The translations under genes and the position numbers were made by a program. Below, in pieces: positions 2,872-10,259 of a stretch of DNA of 12,901 bases. How positions within the stretch are numbered: position 1 is the first letter of the stretch; each line of letters starts with the position of its first letter. The stretch covers positions 1 to 12,901 of the forward strand of contig CACYZS010000027.1 of the NCBI GenBank assembly GCA_902778985.1, in the 5' to 3' direction. The notes under the pieces were generated by a model. The model did not search any database and was not told where the DNA came from. It worked only from the letters and a program-made list of their open reading frames with translations. The DNA comes from an uncultured Ruminococcus sp. GTDB taxonomy: Bacteria > Bacillota > Clostridia > Oscillospirales > CAG-272.

Positions 2872-2889
2872 GCCCGGAAGGGCTTTTTT
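2872..2889 (+). terminator. Small second hairpin with T-tract, tandem to the rpmF terminator
   Basis: GCCC (2872-2875) pairs with GGGC (2880-2883) around a GGAA tetraloop of the GNRA type, followed by six Ts. It directly follows the main terminator, and its T-tract overlaps the stop codon of the convergent HAD gene. It is probably a backup stop, but the 4-bp stem is weak alone. Confidence 0.45.
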
Positions 2890-3524
2890 ATTTTCGGAGA
2901 AGGAACGCTCCCGCCTCGGCGGGCGTTTTGCAGTAGGCGGCGACGGGATAGGGCGAAAACTCCTCTTTTCCGCCGAACCCCCAGAGCGCGGCGACGCACC
3001 CGGCGCCGACCGCCTGCGCCCCCTCGGCGTCGTACTTGCGGTCGCCGAGCAGGATCGCGTCGGCGGGCGCGCAGCCGAGTTTTGAAAGCGCGTAGCGGAG
3101 CACCCCTTCTTTTGTCTGCCGCTCTGGTCCTTCGCCCGACCCGACCACCAGATCGAAGTAGTCGGACAGTCCCAGTCGCAGTAAGATCTTGTCCGCCGCC
3201 GCCTGCAGTTTCGAGGTCCGCCTGGCGAAGGGCGGCGAGCAGTTCCGGGATCCCGGGATAGACCGCCGAGCGGAGATACCACTCCTCTCCCATATACCGG
3301 CGGCGGAAGACCTCGATCGCGCGCGGGATGTCGCTCTCCTTCACCCCGCAGACCACCCCGAACCCGTAGGGGAGCGGCGGACCGAGAAAGGGAAGACAGT
3401 CGTGAAACGACGGCGTCTGATAGCCGAGCGTCTCGAGCGCGTAGAAGGCGGAACCGATCACCCCTTCCGAGGTGTCGATCAGCGTTCCGTCAAGGTCGAA
3501 CAGTACGGTCGAATAGGTTTTCAT
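2888..3524 (-). pseudogene. HAD-superfamily phosphatase (phosphoglycolate phosphatase-like), split by a frame change
   Basis: The N-terminal part (from 3524) reads MKTYSTVLFDLDGTLIDTSEG, with the HAD motif I nucleophile D10 and acid/base D12, then a helical cap up to VYPGIPELLAALRQ. Near 3212-3230 the match moves to another frame: RTSKLQAAADKILLRLGL, then VVGSGEG, and motif IV GDRKYD. The protein ends at 2888. Relatives have about 13 residues between PELL and TSK. Here 19 bases remain where about 39 are expected, so roughly 20 bases are missing, including the strand leading to motif II. Restoring 20 bases would give 218 residues, normal for the Gph/PpaX type. Unshifted translation from 3524 would read on as junk into the antisense of rpmF and yceD. 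The gene is either a true pseudogene or an assembly error; promoter and all other motifs are intact. Confidence 0.85.
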
Positions 3525-3720: not shown

Positions 3721-3749
3721 TTGATTTTCGTTATTTTATATGATATAAT
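3721..3749 (+). promoter_or_regulatory. Extended -10 promoter of the repeat-protein operon
   Basis: TTGATT (3721-3726) and TATAAT (3744-3749) are 17 bp apart, and TGA before the -10 box gives the extended motif TGnTATAAT. Transcription should start near 3756, leaving a leader of about 70 bases. This leader can fold: CCGTC (3771-3775) with GACGG (3800-3804), enclosing CCCG/CGGG (3782-3785, 3792-3795). Confidence 0.88.
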
Positions 3750-3813: not shown

Positions 3814-3820
3814 GGGAGGA
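3814..3820 (+). promoter_or_regulatory. Ribosome binding site that sets the start of the first repeat gene
   Basis: GGGAGGA lies seven bases before ATG 3828. An in-frame GTG at 3795 would add 11 residues but has no binding site and falls inside the leader hairpin, so ATG 3828 is preferred. Confidence 0.85.
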
Positions 3821-3827
3821 TACTGAG

Positions 3828-4937
3828 ATGGCAAAGCAGAAGAGACTGAACTACCTGGTGGACGGTGTCGTGGTTCACACCGAGTTCCTGAAAGAAGGCG
3901 AGAAGATCCGTATCATCAAGGCTCCTGAAAAACCCGGATACGAATTCAAGGAGTGGAAGGATCACCCCGTCTTCATGCCCAAGACGCACCTCAACATTGA
4001 GGCGGTCTACGTCCGGGGTTCTTTCCGCCTGACCTATACCATCGACGGCGTTGAGGTCGATCACGCCATGGTGACCTACGGCGACGAGATCACGCCGCTC
4101 CCGAGCCCCGAGCGCGAAGGGCTGACCTTCAGCGGCTGGCAGGGGCTTCCGCACACGATGCCCGCGCATCCGCTGACGGTGAACGGCACCTTCGCCGCCA
4201 ACACCTTCACGCTGACGCTCGTCATGAACGGCGAGACCTACGCGACCTACCAGTTCGAGCCGGGCGCCGACCTCTCCGACCTGCCCAACCCCGAACTCGA
4301 GGGCTATACGTTCTCCGGCTGGGGCAAACGCTACAAGAAGATGCCCGAGTCCAACCTGACCATGAAGGGCACCTTCAAGCCCAATAAACATTCGGTCGTC
4401 TTCAACGTCGACGACGAATACCGCTTCGAGAAGACGGTCGCCTACGGCGAACCCATCCGCGCGATCGCCGAGCCGGGCAGAGAGCACTACACCTTCACCG
4501 GCTGGGGCACGATCCCGGAGACCATGCCCGACTTCGACCTGACCTTCAACGGCTACTTCAACATCAACTGCTATCCCATCACCTTCTCGCTGGACGGCGA
4601 GGAGATCTTCTCCGACGAGTTCGACTACGGAACGCCGATCACGCCTCCTGAGATCCCCGCGAAGGAAGGGTACGTCTTCAGCGGCTGGCGCAACCTGCCG
4701 AAGACCATGCCCGACGAGGAGGTCCACGCCGAAGGGCGCTACTATCTGAGACGCTACCGCGTGATCTGCGAAGTCGACGGTGAAGAGGTCGACCGCGTAC
4801 AGGTCCTTTACGGCGCCGAGCCGGTCCTCCCCGACGCGCCCGAAAAGGAAGGTTTCCGCTTCGACGGTTGGGAAGGAGTACCGAAGACCATGCCGGCGCA
4901 GGACGTGACTGTGACCGCGAAGTACGTGGAAGTTTGA
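3828..4937 (+). CDS. Six-unit InlB B-repeat-like protein, no export signal
   Basis: A 369-aa protein made entirely of six tandem units of 61 residues. Each unit reads roughly YxLTFxVDGE, then G(D/E)PI, then P-KEGYxFSGW, then LPxTMPxxDLTV. This resembles the InlB B-repeat (Listeria-Bacteroides repeat, Flg_new family), a small beta-grasp-like fold common in surface proteins of gut bacteria. The first unit starts right after MAKQKR, so there is no room for a signal peptide, and the protein ends at the last repeat strand (VTAKYVEV) with no anchor, membrane segment or other domain. It is the first gene of an operon with the larger repeat gene, which begins 15 bases after its TGA and in the same frame. 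Function is unknown. It may pair with, or be a shortened copy of, the neighbour. The repeat family is clear; cellular location is unresolved. Confidence 0.9.
   Translation: MAKQKRLNYLVDGVVVHTEFLKEGEKIRIIKAPEKPGYEFKEWKDHPVFMPKTHLNIEAVYVRGSFRLTYTIDGVEVDHAMVTYGDEITPLPSPEREGLTFSGWQGLPHTMPAHPLTVNGTFAANTFTLTLVMNGETYATYQFEPGADLSDLPNPELEGYTFSGWGKRYKKMPESNLTMKGTFKPNKHSVVFNVDDEYRFEKTVAYGEPIRAIAEPGREHYTFTGWGTIPETMPDFDLTFNGYFNINCYPITFSLDGEEIFSDEFDYGTPITPPEIPAKEGYVFSGWRNLPKTMPDEEVHAEGRYYLRRYRVICEVDGEEVDRVQVLYGAEPVLPDAPEKEGFRFDGWEGVPKTMPAQDVTVTAKYVEV
3846..4934 (+). repeat. Tandem 183-bp coding repeats, six units
   Basis: The Met-Pro codons marking each unit are at 3975, 4158, 4341, 4524, 4707 and 4890. 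Every step is exactly 183 bp (61 codons). The units have diverged in sequence but not in length, which suggests that length is under structural constraint. Confidence 0.92.
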
Positions 4938-4939
4938 CT

Positions 4940-4945
4940 GGAGGA
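4940..4945 (+). promoter_or_regulatory. Ribosome binding site of the giant repeat gene
   Basis: GGAGGA lies seven bases before ATG 4953 and only three bases after the stop of the preceding gene. Spacing and surrounding bases match the site before the first repeat gene, suggesting that the two start regions are copies. Confidence 0.88.
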
Positions 4946-4952
4946 CTGACGA

Positions 4953-7900
4953 ATGTCAAAACAGGAGAGAGCAAAGGAACTCTATCGTCTGATCTACAAG
5001 GTCGACGGTAAGGTCAGTTTCGCGGAATGGTACGCGAAGGGTGAATCCCTGAAGTCGGTCGCCGTTCCGTCCAAGGGGACCTACGAGTTCAGCGGATGGA
5101 GCAATCTTCCCGACAAAATGCCGGACCACGACGTGGTGATCGAGGGTACTTTCACCCCCGCTCTGCACGATCTTGTCTTTATGCTCGAGGGCGGGGAATA
5201 CACCCGCCGTCGGATCGCCTTCGGCAGTCCGACCGAGTCCCCCGAGGTCCCCGAGAAACACGGCGCCACCTTCGCCGGGTGGGAGGGACTTCCCGAGACC
5301 ATGCCCGACGAGGATCTGACGGTCAACGGACGGTACGAGAACAACTCCTACCGCCTGACCTACGTCGTCAACGACCGCCATTCCTTTACGGAGATGGTCC
5401 CCTACCAGTCGGTGATCGAACCGATGGATTACCCGAAGAAGGATCACTACGCCTTTTCGGGTTGGGAAGGTCTGCCCGAGACCATGCCCGACCACGACGT
5501 GACGGTTGAGGGTCGTCTGGAAATGAAGACCTTCCGGCTGGTCCGTATCGTCGACGGCGAGGTGTTCATGGACGAACAACTCCGCATCGGCGATAAGATC
5601 AACAAGAAGGCGAAACCCGTCAAGGAAGGGTACTATTTCAGCGGCTGGCGCAACCTGCCCGACACGATGCCCGACCACGACATCACCGCGATCACCAGTA
5701 TGTATCCCGCCCGTTACCGGGTGGACTACGAGATCGACGGCGAGATCTGGCGCACCGCCTACCAACCCTACGAATCCAAGTTCGAGCCCGAGATCCCGAC
5801 CGACCTCGAAGGCAGAACTTTCGTCGGCTGGACCGACGCCCCCGCGACCGTGCCGATGCACGACTTCGTAGTCCACGGCACCACGGTCCCCGCGGGTGAA
5901 GAGGTCCCCGCCGAACCCGAGATCACGACCTACACCCTGACCTTTGAGGTCGACGGCGAGATCGTGCAGCGCAGGATCCTCGAAGAGGGCGCCGCGATCG
6001 AACTGCCCGAACAACCCGCAAAAGAGGGATATACCTTCGCGTGGGAGAACGCCGCCGAGACCATGCCGGCGGGCGACCTTACGGTCAACGGTTCCTACAC
6101 CCTGAACCTCTACCGTCTGTCCTTCCTGGTCGACGGCGAGGAGATCTCGTCCGAGTCGCTGCCTTTCGGCGCACCCATCACGGTCCCGACGCCCGAAGAG
6201 AAACCCGGCAAGACCTTTGCGTGGAGCGACGAGATCCCCGCGACCATGCCCGCTTCCGACCTGACGGTCACGGGCGGATACGGTGAGGGTTCCTTCACCT
6301 ATACCTTCGTCTGCGAGGGCGAGACGGTGGCGGAAGGGAGCGTTCCCTTCGGCTCCGCCCTGATCGTTCCCGAAATGCCCGAGCGCGACGGCTGCCGCTT
6401 CGAGTGGGACGAGATCCCCGCGACCATGCCTGCGGAGGACGTCACGATCGAGGGACGCTACGTTCCGACCGAGTTCACGGTCTCCTTCCGCGCCGAGGGC
6501 GAGATCATTTCCGAGTGCAGCGTCGCCGCGGGTGACCCGATCCCCGCGCCCGCTCTGCCCGAGAGGACCGGTTACACCTTCTCCGGCTGGGGGCGGATCC
6601 CCGACGAAATGCCGGCGGAAGACCTGGTCTTCGACGGGATCTTCACCATCAACGATTACCGGCTGACCATCATCGCCGGGACCGAGGCGCTCTTTGACGG
6701 GTCGGTCGAGTTCGACTCCCCGATCTCGGTGCCCGACGCGCCCGCCCTCGAGGGTTACACCTTCGACGGTTGGGGCGACGTTCCCGCGACCATGCCGGCG
6801 CACGATCTCACCATCGCGTCGGGGTACACCCCGATCGCCTACCCGCTCACCTTCAACCTGAACGGCGAACCGATCTACTCGCGCGAGGTCTCCTTCCGGT
6901 CGCCCGTCATTCCGCCCGACGTCGTGGTTCCCGAGGGGTATATCTTCTCCGGTTGGGGCGACGTTCCCGCGACCATGCCGGCGCACGCCCTGTCGATCGA
7001 CGCGACGCTGCGCGGCGCGATCTTCCGCCTGACCTTCCTGCTCGACGGCAAACCCGTCTACGAACAGGATATCGCGGCGGGCGAACCCATTCCGCTGCCT
7101 GCCGAACCCGACCTGCCGGAAGGGTACGAGGCGGACGGTTGGGGCGTGATCCCCGAGGTGATGCCCGCAGAGTCGCTCACCTTCGCCAACTACACCCACA
7201 AGACCAGTTACACGCTCCGCTTCGTCCTTGACGGAGAGACGGTCTCGCAAACGCGCGTCGCCTTCGGCGATCCCATCGTCGCGCCCGCGGTCGAGATCCC
7301 GTCCGAGCGCCGCTTCCTCGGTTGGAACGAATGTCCCGACACGATGCCGTCCCACGACCTGACGGTCGAAGGGAAGACCGAGATCCGCAAGACCTCGATC
7401 GTCTTCACGGTCGACGGCAAGGCGGTCGCGACGGTCACCGGCTTCGTCGGTTCGCCGGTCGAGGAGATCCCCGAGGCGCCCGAAAAGGACGGCATGGACT
7501 TTGCCGGCTGGATCGGTCTTCCCGAGGTCTTCCCGAAAGAGGATACCGAGGTCGCCGGCGACTACGCCAAGGGTCTTTCGACCGTTACCTTCGTCCTTGA
7601 CGGCGAGGTGTTCGCGGAGAAGAAGGTCCGCTTCGGCGATCCCGTCGTCGCGCCCGCCGTTCCCGAAAAAGAGGGATACGGCTTCTCGGGTTGGAAGAAC
7701 CTTTCCGAGGAGATGCCCGCGTACGACTTCACCGTGTCGGGCGAGATGATCCCGAACGTTCACACCGTCACCTTCACCCTGGACGGCGAAAACTACGAGA
7801 CGCGCAAGGTCGCCTTCGGCGAGCCTGTCGTCTGCCCGGATCTGCCCGACGACGCTACGAGACAGTACGTCTGGGGAGAATACCCCGAGACCATGCCCGA

Positions 7901-10259
7901 CGAGGATATCACGGTCGAGGCGACCTCTTCGGTCTCTGCCCGCACCGTCACCTATCTGCTTGACGGCGAGGTCTATCGCGTCGAGCACGTCGCGGTCGGA
8001 AACGTGGTGCCGAAGATCAATCCGCCCGCGATCGACGGCTTCGTCTTCTCGGGTTGGGAGAACTACTCCCGCGTTATGCCCGACTACGACTTCACCGTCA
8101 CGGGCACTTACCGTCCCGAACGCTTCACCGTGACCTACATGGCGGACGGCGAGGTCTTTGCCACCGAGGACTATCTGCCCGGCGACGTGATCGTCCCCGT
8201 CAGCGGCAAGAAACCCGACCACGCCGAGTTCCTCGAGTGGATCGGACTGCCCGCGACCATGCCGTCGCGCGATCTTACGGTCGAGGCGAAATACGCGACC
8301 GAATACTTCGAGATCACCTACATCCTCGAGACCACCCCCGTCGCGACCAAGCGCGTCGCCGCGGGCGCGTGGATCACGCCGCCGCTCGTTCCCGATAAGG
8401 ACGGGTACGTCTTCGCCGGGTGGCGCGGACTGCCCGAGCGGATGCCGGCGCGCGACCTGATCGTGATCGGAAAGTACGATCCCGCGTTCCACTTCATCAC
8501 CTACCGCGTCGACGGTTCGTACTACCACCGCGAACTCTATCCGATCGGCGCGAAGATCAAGGCGCTGTCTGCGCCGGTCGTCGAGGGACGCATCTTCGTC
8601 GAGTGGAAGAACTTCGCCGACGAGATGCCCGACTACGACTTCACGGTCGACGCGGTCTTCCGCGACAACATCTGCAAGTACACCTTCCTCTCCGAGGGAA
8701 GCGTGCTGGCGAGCGGAAAACTCCGTGCGGGAGATCCGCTTCCCATGCCGATCCCGGAATCGCCGAAGGGGTATGAATTCATCGGCTTCGACGGCTACAC
8801 CGGCAAGATGCCCGAGCAGGACGTCACCTACGTCGCCCGCTTCGAGCGCAAGGTCTACCGCGTTACCTACGTCCTGGACGGCGACCTCTACGGCGACGAC
8901 AAGTTCCGTGAGGGCGAGACCGTCAAGGTCAGCCCGTCGATGACGCCGTCGATCCCCGAAGGGTACGAGTTCAGCGGTTGGGAAGGACTGCCGTCCGTGA
9001 TGCCCGACCACGACGTCGAGGTCAACGGTACCATGACGCCGAAGGAATTCGTTCTCTCGTTCGTCGCCGACGGTACGACCATTCCCGATAAGAAACTGGC
9101 TTGCGACGCCGAGATCGCCGCCGTGACCGCCCCCGAGCGGCACGCCCTGACCTTCTCGGGCTGGAGCGACCTGCCCGACGCGATGCCGGCGCGCGACGTG
9201 ATCGCGCACGGCGCCTACACCCCCTCCGACGGCGACTACGTTGAAATGCGCGCCGACTTCGAGGGCGTCGAAGGCGACCGTCCCGTCCACGTTTCGGGCA
9301 AGAAAGAGGTCGAGGATCTCGGCTCCTTCAAGCGGCTGATCGCCGTTTCGGGCGGTCGGATCGAAGTCACCGGACGCAAGAAGAAGATGAACCGCGTCGA
9401 TATCTCGAAGTTCGTCTGCGACGGCGTCGTGACCGACAAAGCGGGTCTTGCCGACGCGATCAAACGGCTGTTCGCCGCGACCGTGACCAAGAAGAACGAC
9501 GCCTTCGCTCTGGTGATCGACCACAAGGCGTCGGTCAACAAACTCGTGACCGTCCAGGCGTCGAAAGACGAAGCCGAGACGGCGATCCGCGGTGAGATCC
9601 CCGCCGTTCTCGCGAGCGCCGGAATTGCCGACGCGAAGAGCATGGCGACCGTCCTTACCGTCAACGAGAGCGCCGGAACGGCGGAAGGGTTGGTCTCGGT
9701 GTTCGACGCGACCTACGCCGACACGATGTTCGACCTTCTGAGCGCCGCGGGCTTCGTCACCGACGAACCCAAGACGCCCGAATACTTCCTCTGCGAGGTG
9801 CTGAAGACCAAAGAGGCGCACCGCAAGGGCAACGCGATCGTCAAATTCCGCACCGACGGCTTTATGCTGATGGCTTTGGCACGGAACGGTCGGATCGTCT
9901 ACACGACCAAGAACCGGATCCCGTACGATCTGAACGCCGAACAGCGCGTACAGACCGAGATCGACACCGAGTTTGCAACGATCGCCGACTTCGTCCGCGA
10001 GGAGACCGAGGATCGGTTCTTCATCCGCAGTTTGATCTGGGGCGGCGTCTACTCCGAAAAGAAGAAAGCCGAAGAGAAGTATCTCCGCCGCAAGATCAAG
10101 GCGTTCAACAAGTCCCAGAAGGGATTTTTCGCCCGCGCCTTCTCAAAATCCAAACCCCGGCTCTACGACCTTGCGTCCCCCGTTGTGAAGAAACGGAAAC
10201 GCCCCGTGGTCGATATCGACCGGGCGGCGCGCGACGATAAGTGGTCGTCCGCCAGGTAA
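4953..10259 (+). CDS. Giant 23-unit InlB B-repeat-like protein with a PilM-like C-terminal domain
   Basis: A 1768-aa protein. Residues about 10-1430 are 23 tandem 61-residue units of the same InlB B-repeat-like type as the upstream gene. After unit 5 a short Pro/Glu-rich linker (about residues 310-326) splits the array into 5 and 18. Residues about 1445-1685 are not repeats. They run from SGGRIEVTGRKKK through DGVVTDKAGLADAIKRL, ALVIDHKASVNKLVTV, a LLSAAGF segment and IVKFRTDGFMLMALARNGRIVYT. This order recalls PilM, the actin-like cytoplasmic protein of type IV pilus assembly, but the DIG-type phosphate motifs are absent, so ATP binding is doubtful. The last 65 residues are rich in Lys/Arg (for example KKRKRP). 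There is no signal peptide, membrane helix or LPXTG motif. Promoter and binding site suggest strong expression. Function is unknown; the repeat call is firm, the PilM link tentative. Confidence 0.85.
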   Translation: MSKQERAKELYRLIYKVDGKVSFAEWYAKGESLKSVAVPSKGTYEFSGWSNLPDKMPDHDVVIEGTFTPALHDLVFMLEGGEYTRRRIAFGSPTESPEVPEKHGATFAGWEGLPETMPDEDLTVNGRYENNSYRLTYVVNDRHSFTEMVPYQSVIEPMDYPKKDHYAFSGWEGLPETMPDHDVTVEGRLEMKTFRLVRIVDGEVFMDEQLRIGDKINKKAKPVKEGYYFSGWRNLPDTMPDHDITAITSMYPARYRVDYEIDGEIWRTAYQPYESKFEPEIPTDLEGRTFVGWTDAPATVPMHDFVVHGTTVPAGEEVPAEPEITTYTLTFEVDGEIVQRRILEEGAAIELPEQPAKEGYTFAWENAAETMPAGDLTVNGSYTLNLYRLSFLVDGEEISSESLPFGAPITVPTPEEKPGKTFAWSDEIPATMPASDLTVTGGYGEGSFTYTFVCEGETVAEGSVPFGSALIVPEMPERDGCRFEWDEIPATMPAEDVTIEGRYVPTEFTVSFRAEGEIISECSVAAGDPIPAPALPERTGYTFSGWGRIPDEMPAEDLVFDGIFTINDYRLTIIAGTEALFDGSVEFDSPISVPDAPALEGYTFDGWGDVPATMPAHDLTIASGYTPIAYPLTFNLNGEPIYSREVSFRSPVIPPDVVVPEGYIFSGWGDVPATMPAHALSIDATLRGAIFRLTFLLDGKPVYEQDIAAGEPIPLPAEPDLPEGYEADGWGVIPEVMPAESLTFANYTHKTSYTLRFVLDGETVSQTRVAFGDPIVAPAVEIPSERRFLGWNECPDTMPSHDLTVEGKTEIRKTSIVFTVDGKAVATVTGFVGSPVEEIPEAPEKDGMDFAGWIGLPEVFPKEDTEVAGDYAKGLSTVTFVLDGEVFAEKKVRFGDPVVAPAVPEKEGYGFSGWKNLSEEMPAYDFTVSGEMIPNVHTVTFTLDGENYETRKVAFGEPVVCPDLPDDATRQYVWGEYPETMPDEDITVEATSSVSARTVTYLLDGEVYRVEHVAVGNVVPKINPPAIDGFVFSGWENYSRVMPDYDFTVTGTYRPERFTVTYMADGEVFATEDYLPGDVIVPVSGKKPDHAEFLEWIGLPATMPSRDLTVEAKYATEYFEITYILETTPVATKRVAAGAWITPPLVPDKDGYVFAGWRGLPERMPARDLIVIGKYDPAFHFITYRVDGSYYHRELYPIGAKIKALSAPVVEGRIFVEWKNFADEMPDYDFTVDAVFRDNICKYTFLSEGSVLASGKLRAGDPLPMPIPESPKGYEFIGFDGYTGKMPEQDVTYVARFERKVYRVTYVLDGDLYGDDKFREGETVKVSPSMTPSIPEGYEFSGWEGLPSVMPDHDVEVNGTMTPKEFVLSFVADGTTIPDKKLACDAEIAAVTAPERHALTFSGWSDLPDAMPARDVIAHGAYTPSDGDYVEMRADFEGVEGDRPVHVSGKKEVEDLGSFKRLIAVSGGRIEVTGRKKKMNRVDISKFVCDGVVTDKAGLADAIKRLFAATVTKKNDAFALVIDHKASVNKLVTVQASKDEAETAIRGEIPAVLASAGIADAKSMATVLTVNESAGTAEGLVSVFDATYADTMFDLLSAAGFVTDEPKTPEYFLCEVLKTKEAHRKGNAIVKFRTDGFMLMALARNGRIVYTTKNRIPYDLNAEQRVQTEIDTEFATIADFVREETEDRFFIRSLIWGGVYSEKKKAEEKYLRRKIKAFNKSQKGFFARAFSKSKPRLYDLASPVVKKRKRPVVDIDRAARDDKWSSAR
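6767..6804 (+). repeat. 38-bp direct repeat, first copy (repeat unit 10)
   Basis: It is identical to 6950-6987, exactly 183 bp downstream, and encodes the GWGDVPATMPAH segment. Most other unit pairs lack such long identity, so this points to recent unit duplication or gene conversion. Confidence 0.9.
6950..6987 (+). repeat. 38-bp direct repeat, second copy (repeat unit 11)
   Basis: It is identical to 6767-6804. Sequence on either side differs, so the shared part is a patch rather than a full duplicated unit. Confidence 0.9.
9285..10007 (+). other. Non-repeat C-terminal domain of the giant protein, PilM-like by element order
   Basis: The segment covers about residues 1445-1685. Elements in order: a short strand pair; DGVVTDKAGLADAIKRL, comparable to the 'dG.i.d...la.alk.l' turn and helix of PilM; a strand VIDHKASVNKLVTVQAS followed by a helix; the VSVFDATYADTMFDLLSAAGF strand-helix; then a late strand pair NAIVKFRTDGFMLMALARNGRIVYT. 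The match is by pattern recognition only, with no alignment run. Confidence 0.4.

Follow-up and report, generated by a model that had tools for sequence, protein, structure and literature searches.

A predicted cytoplasmic module of leaderless InlB-type repeat proteins, one ending in a PilM-like domain, in an uncultured Ruminococcus

The InlB B-repeat (PF09479; Listeria InlB, 2y5p) and the internalin-type proteins that carry it have been described at the cell surface, and such repeats are generally taken as a sign of surface proteins and of host attachment, as in the relevant passages of PMC9723798. A repeat stalk is likewise part of the fibrillar adhesins, which the pertinent sections of PMC9210967 treat as cell-surface proteins, and Flg_new is named there as a stalk domain in a single protein. 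On the opposite side of the membrane, PilM is cytoplasmic and FtsA peripheral on the inner face (PMC5285504, in the part concerned with these proteins), and the portion of PMC7613929 dealing with their ligands has the tails of both FtsN and PilN binding the cleft between subdomains IA and IC, in different ways. Here we describe two adjacent genes, A and B, in a 12,901-nucleotide stretch of DNA (hereafter the window) from an uncultured Ruminococcus sp., whose products are built of InlB-type repeats and in which B ends in a PilM/FtsA-like domain. On balance, we favor the view that A-B is a cytoplasmic two-protein module in which B serves as a scaffold or tether and docks by means of a PilM-like end that has been domesticated.

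The window is the complete contig C27 of genome G000 (1.65 Mb over 250 contigs, with 86% completeness). Our analysis of A-B is one of sequence, from which their location in the cell is predicted, and many of the relatives' genomes are incomplete. Both open reading frames, 15 nt apart, lie where an earlier sequence-only reading of the window had placed them (Table 1), and its 29 InlB-type repeats of 61 residues are borne out: an MP anchor together with a profile of the units gives a period of 61, with 6 units in A and 23 in B. PF09479 matches A at E 1.2e-42 (144.3 bits) and B at E 1.8e-98 (323.1 bits), with a cut-off of 27. The other repeat-family matches in Pfam and NCBIfam are PF18998, TIGR02543, and, in B, SHIRT at 3.6e-5, and the NCBIfam internalin models match solely via the repeats, far under their cut-offs. 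At E 0.01, Pfam returned only repeat families for A and B, with no leucine-rich repeat domain and no wall or membrane anchor. The same reading had described both proteins as mainly repeats, which stands for the 29 units but not for the last 341 residues of B, a separate domain that it overlooked. The AlphaFold2 model of A has a predicted local distance difference test value of 90 and a predicted template modelling (TM) score of 0.45, i.e., confident units in a chain whose overall arrangement is not fixed. Foldseek aligned this model with the Listeria B-repeat 2y5p at probability 1.00 (7.5e-4, 72 columns); with a TM-score normalized to the target of 0.70-0.73 and a root mean square deviation of 2.0-2.1 Angstrom, the beta-grasp fold of the unit is recovered. 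The top Foldseek match is the surface protein YwfG (4.4e-8), followed by ubiquitin chains, with 2y5p ranking lower.

Table 1. Coordinates of A-B and associated features in the window
Feature	Position	Strand	Remarks
Gene A	3828..4937	+	369 aa; 6 InlB-type repeats, no leader; ATG 3828, stop 4937
Gene B	4953..10259	+	1768 aa; 23 InlB-type repeats and PilM/FtsA-like C-terminal domain; ATG 4953
N-terminal head of B, units 1-5	4953..5882	+	colinear reciprocal-best match in all four relatives for units 1, 4, and 5 and in three for unit 3
Middle of B (spacer), units 6-17	5883..8075	+	unit number differs between relatives
C-terminal stalk of B, units 18-23	8076..9182	+	units 18, 20, 21, and 22 reciprocal-best in 4 of 4 relatives; 23 in 3 of 4; 19 in 2 of 4
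Non-repeat domain of B, 341 residues	9234..10256	+	alignable to the PilM/FtsA actin-like fold over residues ~26-325 (9309-10208)
Promoter-like site	3721..3749	+	TTGATT-17-TATAAT, TG before the second hexamer; consensus match only
Ribosome-binding site of gene A	3814..3820	+	GGGAGGA; all 11 loci have GGAGG no more than 18 nt ahead of A
Ribosome-binding site of gene B	4940..4944	+	GGAGG; 9 of the 11 loci have GGAGG no more than 18 nt ahead of B

The C-terminal domain of B shares the actin-like fold of PilM (5eoy, 2ych, 3jc8), together with remote sequence homology, as judged from its predicted structure and from profile-profile comparison. The link is seen in these two ways only: direct sequence searches of Pfam, NCBIfam, and PDB with the domain gave nothing credible, and PilM_2 (PF11104) had no domain match to E 0.01, none across the 12 A-B genomes, and no place among the families listed for the 16 members of the set A3. 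When 394 genomes of the order were searched with a profile of the domain, the matches outside B were pilM-type genes situated behind pilC (in G406 and G284). Of the phosphate motifs that mark canonical PilM (of the D-x-G-S/T type), neither the first nor the second is recognizable in any of the B-domain rows covered (14 of 16), the canonical set (16 of 25 loci) having been filtered on the first motif, so that it gives the position of the motif and not its frequency. G406 and G284 likewise have pilM-type genes without recognizable copies of these motifs, and hence their loss may run in the subfamily rather than being special to B. An invariant GG of the B domains falls at the expected position of the adenosine motif and is not kept in G406 and G284. 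Going by its sequence motifs, the C-terminal domain of B is probably ATPase-dead, and it is likely to serve as an adaptor rather than an enzyme. Unlike PilM, it sits behind 23 repeats, with degraded phosphate motifs and no adjoining pilus genes. A PilM-like domain within a larger protein is also found in GspL/EpsL (1yf5, 1w97), where the cytoplasmic domain is fused with a membrane helix plus a periplasmic domain, whereas B joins it to a repeat array without any hydrophobic segment. As a separate observation, the pilM-type gene behind pilC in G406, a genome of another family, continues into a membrane helix and further sequence without a Pfam match (L098 1348-2931); we take this extension to be PilN-like, which would make the gene a natural fusion.

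Neither protein has a recognizable export signal, the calls here and below resting on hydropathy and inspection of open frames. In the window, 21 in-frame codons are open upstream of A and 1 upstream of B, and across the 11 A-B loci these numbers are 5-29 and 1-14. The maximal 19-residue hydropathy is 0.97 in A and 1.31 in B, whereas two lipoprotein leaders from this genome reach 2.45 and 2.57 (one of them from the gene next to the repeat gene of contig C211, itself without an InlB repeat by Pfam). A and B contain neither LPxTG nor a hydrophobic segment. Over the first 70 residues from the start of the open frame, the 11 loci do not exceed 1.38 (over 12 residues) and show no LPxTG, while the lipoprotein on contig C52 reaches 3.16 by the same measure. 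In the 16 B homologues, the maximal hydropathy over the whole length is 0.99-1.89, and there is no hydrophobic N-terminus. Among the best 120 of 361 matches to protein A, 27 are of A-like length (the window's included, several near-identical), and a threshold of 2.2 is reached by none of these 27, as against 47 of the 89 other Met-starting matches. The leaderless state is common to relatives down to ~19% identity in the C-terminal domain. Since the leader is absent across loci and homologues, we regard the missing export signal as a conserved property and not the product of a mis-called start; the latter was considered and rejected, the upstream frames being short and their inclusion leaving the hydropathy of the first 70 residues at or below 1.4. 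Thus, the earlier claim that no signal peptide, membrane helix, or sorting motif is visible holds. Of the observations that, according to that reading, would mark ordinary surface proteins, neither was made: no upstream in-frame start with a signal peptide exists in the window or the 11 loci, and no homologue with an N-terminal export signal was seen among the 11 loci, 16 B homologues, and 27 A-length proteins. Elsewhere in the genome, an M56-type membrane peptidase (L046 60-1952, contig C211) combines a single repeat (PF09479, 57 bits) and LRR_5 with a hydrophobic start, and the lipoprotein of contig C52 (L047 3-851), also with a hydrophobic start, stays under the PF09479 cut-off (18.8 of 27 bits).

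The pair is conserved as a unit. Both genes lie on one contig in 11 genomes (G000, G009, G021, G024, G026, G032, G033, G037, G045, G104, and G105), with A directly upstream of B in all of them at a gap of 4-26 nt; B leaves the contig in G021 and G033. A 12th A-B genome, G106, retains the end of B only, on a 3-kb contig. The window's C-terminal domain sequence detects its counterpart in 9 of the 69 genomes of the genus, to which the domain profile adds G037 and the contig-end copies G021 and G033; the resulting ~12 of 69 carriers are a lower bound because many of those genomes are incomplete. B is 1768-1771 aa long in 8 of the 9 homologues of one search, and the single named one bears the title "InlB B-repeat-containing protein." In comparisons with relatives, the ratio of nonsynonymous to synonymous substitution rates (dN/dS) amounts to 0.08-0.10 in two pairs for A and, leaving out the first 55 residues, to 0.22-0.26 in three pairs for B. 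Both genes are under purifying selection. A-B occupies several chromosomal sites, and the flanking genes differ between relatives.

A unit-by-unit best-match comparison of the window's B with four divergent relatives (G026, 32 units; G009, 26; G104, 19; P0013, 19) divides the array into three parts (Table 1), colinearity of the stalk units being counted from the C-terminal end. Within the head, unit 2 is reciprocal-best in one of the four relatives. In the middle, none of units 6-16 has a reciprocal-best match in every one of the four; unit 9 comes closest, with three, and unit 17 has two. The total number of units in B ranges from 19 to 32 across relatives, and in a closer relative with 23 units (P0009), almost every unit corresponds to one in the window. 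In protein A, units 3-5 are reciprocal-best in each of four relatives, whose versions have 6 or 5 units. By this sequence comparison, conserved ends enclose a variable middle, as would be expected if the arm were functional at both ends and had a spacer of adjustable length between them.

Taking these findings together, we propose that B might function as a long tether, with some five beta-grasp repeats as its head, a middle in which the number of units would set the reach of the arm, a six-unit stalk, and a C-terminal PilM-like domain. We trace the latter to a type IV pilus-type machine; its nucleotide-binding motifs are degraded, and, like PilM and FtsA, it would most likely act as an adaptor, gripping a membrane protein by a short peptide on the cytoplasmic side or pairing with itself. 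We infer the docking of this end on a membrane protein by its likeness to the domains that bind the FtsN and PilN tails; that B is docked at the membrane and acts as a tether is suggested tentatively, as somewhat short of an even chance. Protein A, which is encoded in the same operon and consists of a few repeats of the same kind, would most likely cap or cross-link the arm of B, and contact between the two proteins appears reasonably probable. At ~3 nm per unit, by our estimate, the arm could span tens of nanometers, and A-B would form an intracellular scaffold that extends into the cytoplasm from its dock at the membrane and keeps A or another partner at a distance. The sequence-only reading had offered a cytoplasmic scaffold or an unusual export route. 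The former is preferred because B ends in a PilM/FtsA-type domain, but "repeat scaffold" covers only part of the anatomy, the PilM-like domain having been missed. A cytoplasmic location of A-B is very probable, and the chances appear evenly balanced that the two form an intracellular system comprising a leaderless beta-grasp arm of adjustable length, an ATPase-dead domesticated PilM end, and a short repeat partner.

If A-B is cytoplasmic, the inference from repeat to surface breaks for one conserved family, and repeat-based predictions of adhesins would take in intracellular structural proteins. On the reading as an intracellular system with a domesticated PilM end, the "surface" InlB repeat would have gained a second use as a tether or ruler in the cytoplasm, and a pilus alignment protein would have been put to work away from any pilus; the PilM-like end offers a testable docking hypothesis and would exemplify the recruitment of a pilus-machine part where no pilus is found. 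We assign A-B neither to the usual proteins of the repeat, because the export features of these are lacking, nor to PilM, because profile, motifs, and operon context do not agree. While the repeat unit and the terminal fold are already known, their combination appears to be new: among the best-ranked open-licence papers, we found no description of an InlB-repeat/PilM fusion, the leaderless combination, the A-B pair, or a pilus-free PilM relative. There is a fair chance that A-B represents a new kind of intracellular structure.

Several observations weigh against the proposed cytoplasmic tether. The Foldseek TM-scores of the C-terminal domain against PilM are modest (0.41-0.53). The hydropathy data would also be compatible with a leaderless export route. 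Surface proteins and ubiquitin chains make up the top ten matches of the predicted repeat model, a result that is neutral as to an intracellular place. Finally, PilN was detected in none of the 12 A-B genomes, so that no partner was found by this route; this absence weighs little because the PilN model, a weak one, matched in just 2 of 14 control genomes and missed the PilM-linked loci of G406 and G284, both pilus-bearing comparison genomes. The same searches bear on the idea that A-B still works within a pilus or secretion machine, one that is reduced or has diverged strongly, and that the PilM-like domain has kept its old job there. The relationship of the domain to PilM of pilus-type operons in the same order would fit this idea, as would a pilin-type signal in G009 on the very contig that carries A-B (C75, 31429-31503), but this signal is the only one in the 12 A-B genomes. 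Moreover, these incomplete genomes yielded no PilC/GspF (0 of 11) and no PilB/GspE above the cut-off (0 of 12, with weak subthreshold matches in 6), and the varying neighbors of A-B include none that we read as pilus genes. We hence consider a pilus part doubtful, and marginally less likely than the assembly of a filament, itself unlikely, in which the PilM/FtsA-like domain would polymerize as FtsA does and the repeat arms would decorate or bundle an intracellular filament, making the system cytoskeletal rather than a tether. Against a filament of the FtsA kind (7q6d, 3wt0, 4a2b), the non-B matches of the domain profile in the 394 genomes are the pilM-type genes behind pilC, the FtsA profile TIGR01174 has its sole match in G000 on contig C44 and none on the window's contig, and the phosphate-binding motifs are degraded.

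That A and B reach the surface, whether through lysis or by an unusual export route that needs no leader, is improbable. The repeat family is known from stalks and adhesin-like surface proteins (so far as the sections of PMC9210967 and PMC9723798 on them go), and the two further PF09479-matching genes of this genome, one of them below the cut-off, start with a hydrophobic segment; against this, no hydrophobic leader or LPxTG occurs in the 11 loci or the homologues examined, and the relatives of the terminal domain are proteins of the cytoplasm and inner membrane face. Compared with the fibrillar adhesins, B shares the repeat stalk but has no anchor, its fixed end being PilM-like. Even less probable, and in our view hardly to be entertained, is that they are former surface proteins that lost their leaders and are now decaying: the repeats do resemble those of exported proteins, yet the length of B is nearly constant among homologues, dN/dS is well under 1, the pair and its spacing are kept, and the leaderless state persists across the most distant relatives.

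A further candidate role, with B substituting for a lost FtsA, was dropped because the absence of ftsA and the presence of A-B do not go together: none of the 69 genomes of the genus has an ftsA match above the NCBIfam cut-off (7 of 14 in the control set do), but A-B occurs in only ~12. Partial matches, present in 58 of the 69 and with frames mostly of ~350 aa, are presumably MreB-like. An origin in mobile elements was also rejected: A has 13 records in the phage collection, all under 60% identity and 10 of them named Listeria phage, and the C-terminal domain has no match in the plasmid collection, each of the two having been compared with that one collection. Two other InlB-repeat proteins were set aside as relatives. 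The 1610-aa protein of G029 (L043 7404-12233), at first sight a leaderless relative, has on our reading a membrane helix ahead of its repeats, which are mostly different, and a zinc-ribbon-like N-terminus; the array of G017 (L042 3411-8120), open at the contig end, has a lysine-rich C-terminus and no PilM-like domain and was left out of the A-B loci.

With regard to expression, the good ribosome-binding sites noted earlier are present, and the extended -10 promoter corresponds to a promoter-like site recognized by consensus match only (Table 1); three such promoter-like sites occur in that 1.5-kb stretch against 0.4 expected, one of them on the opposite strand. The biased codon use claimed for the pair proved mild and confined to the repeats. 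Against a small reference of EF-Tu and L32, codon adaptation is 0.706 for A and 0.672 for B, compared to 0.46-0.62 for four window neighbors and 0.43 for one gene elsewhere in the genome; the C-terminal part of B alone, at 0.62, is not above the PHP neighbor.

The neighbors of A-B in the window are a HAD gene and a CpsB/PHP gene. The former, encoding a HAD-type hydrolase before A on the minus strand (2888-3524), changes frame midway, whereas its counterpart in G032 is open; the shift reflects either gene decay or a mistake in the assembly. In other genomes, A-B lies beside genes that we take to be dGTPase-like (G104 and G033), phosphoglycerate-mutase-like (G104), and epimerase-like (G037), and beside a presumed xanthine-dehydrogenase-like group (G009). 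Ten named records encode a relative of A, eight labeled as Clostridia or uncultured Ruminococcus and two as uncultured bacterium, and three of the ten name yak rumen or water-buffalo cecum.
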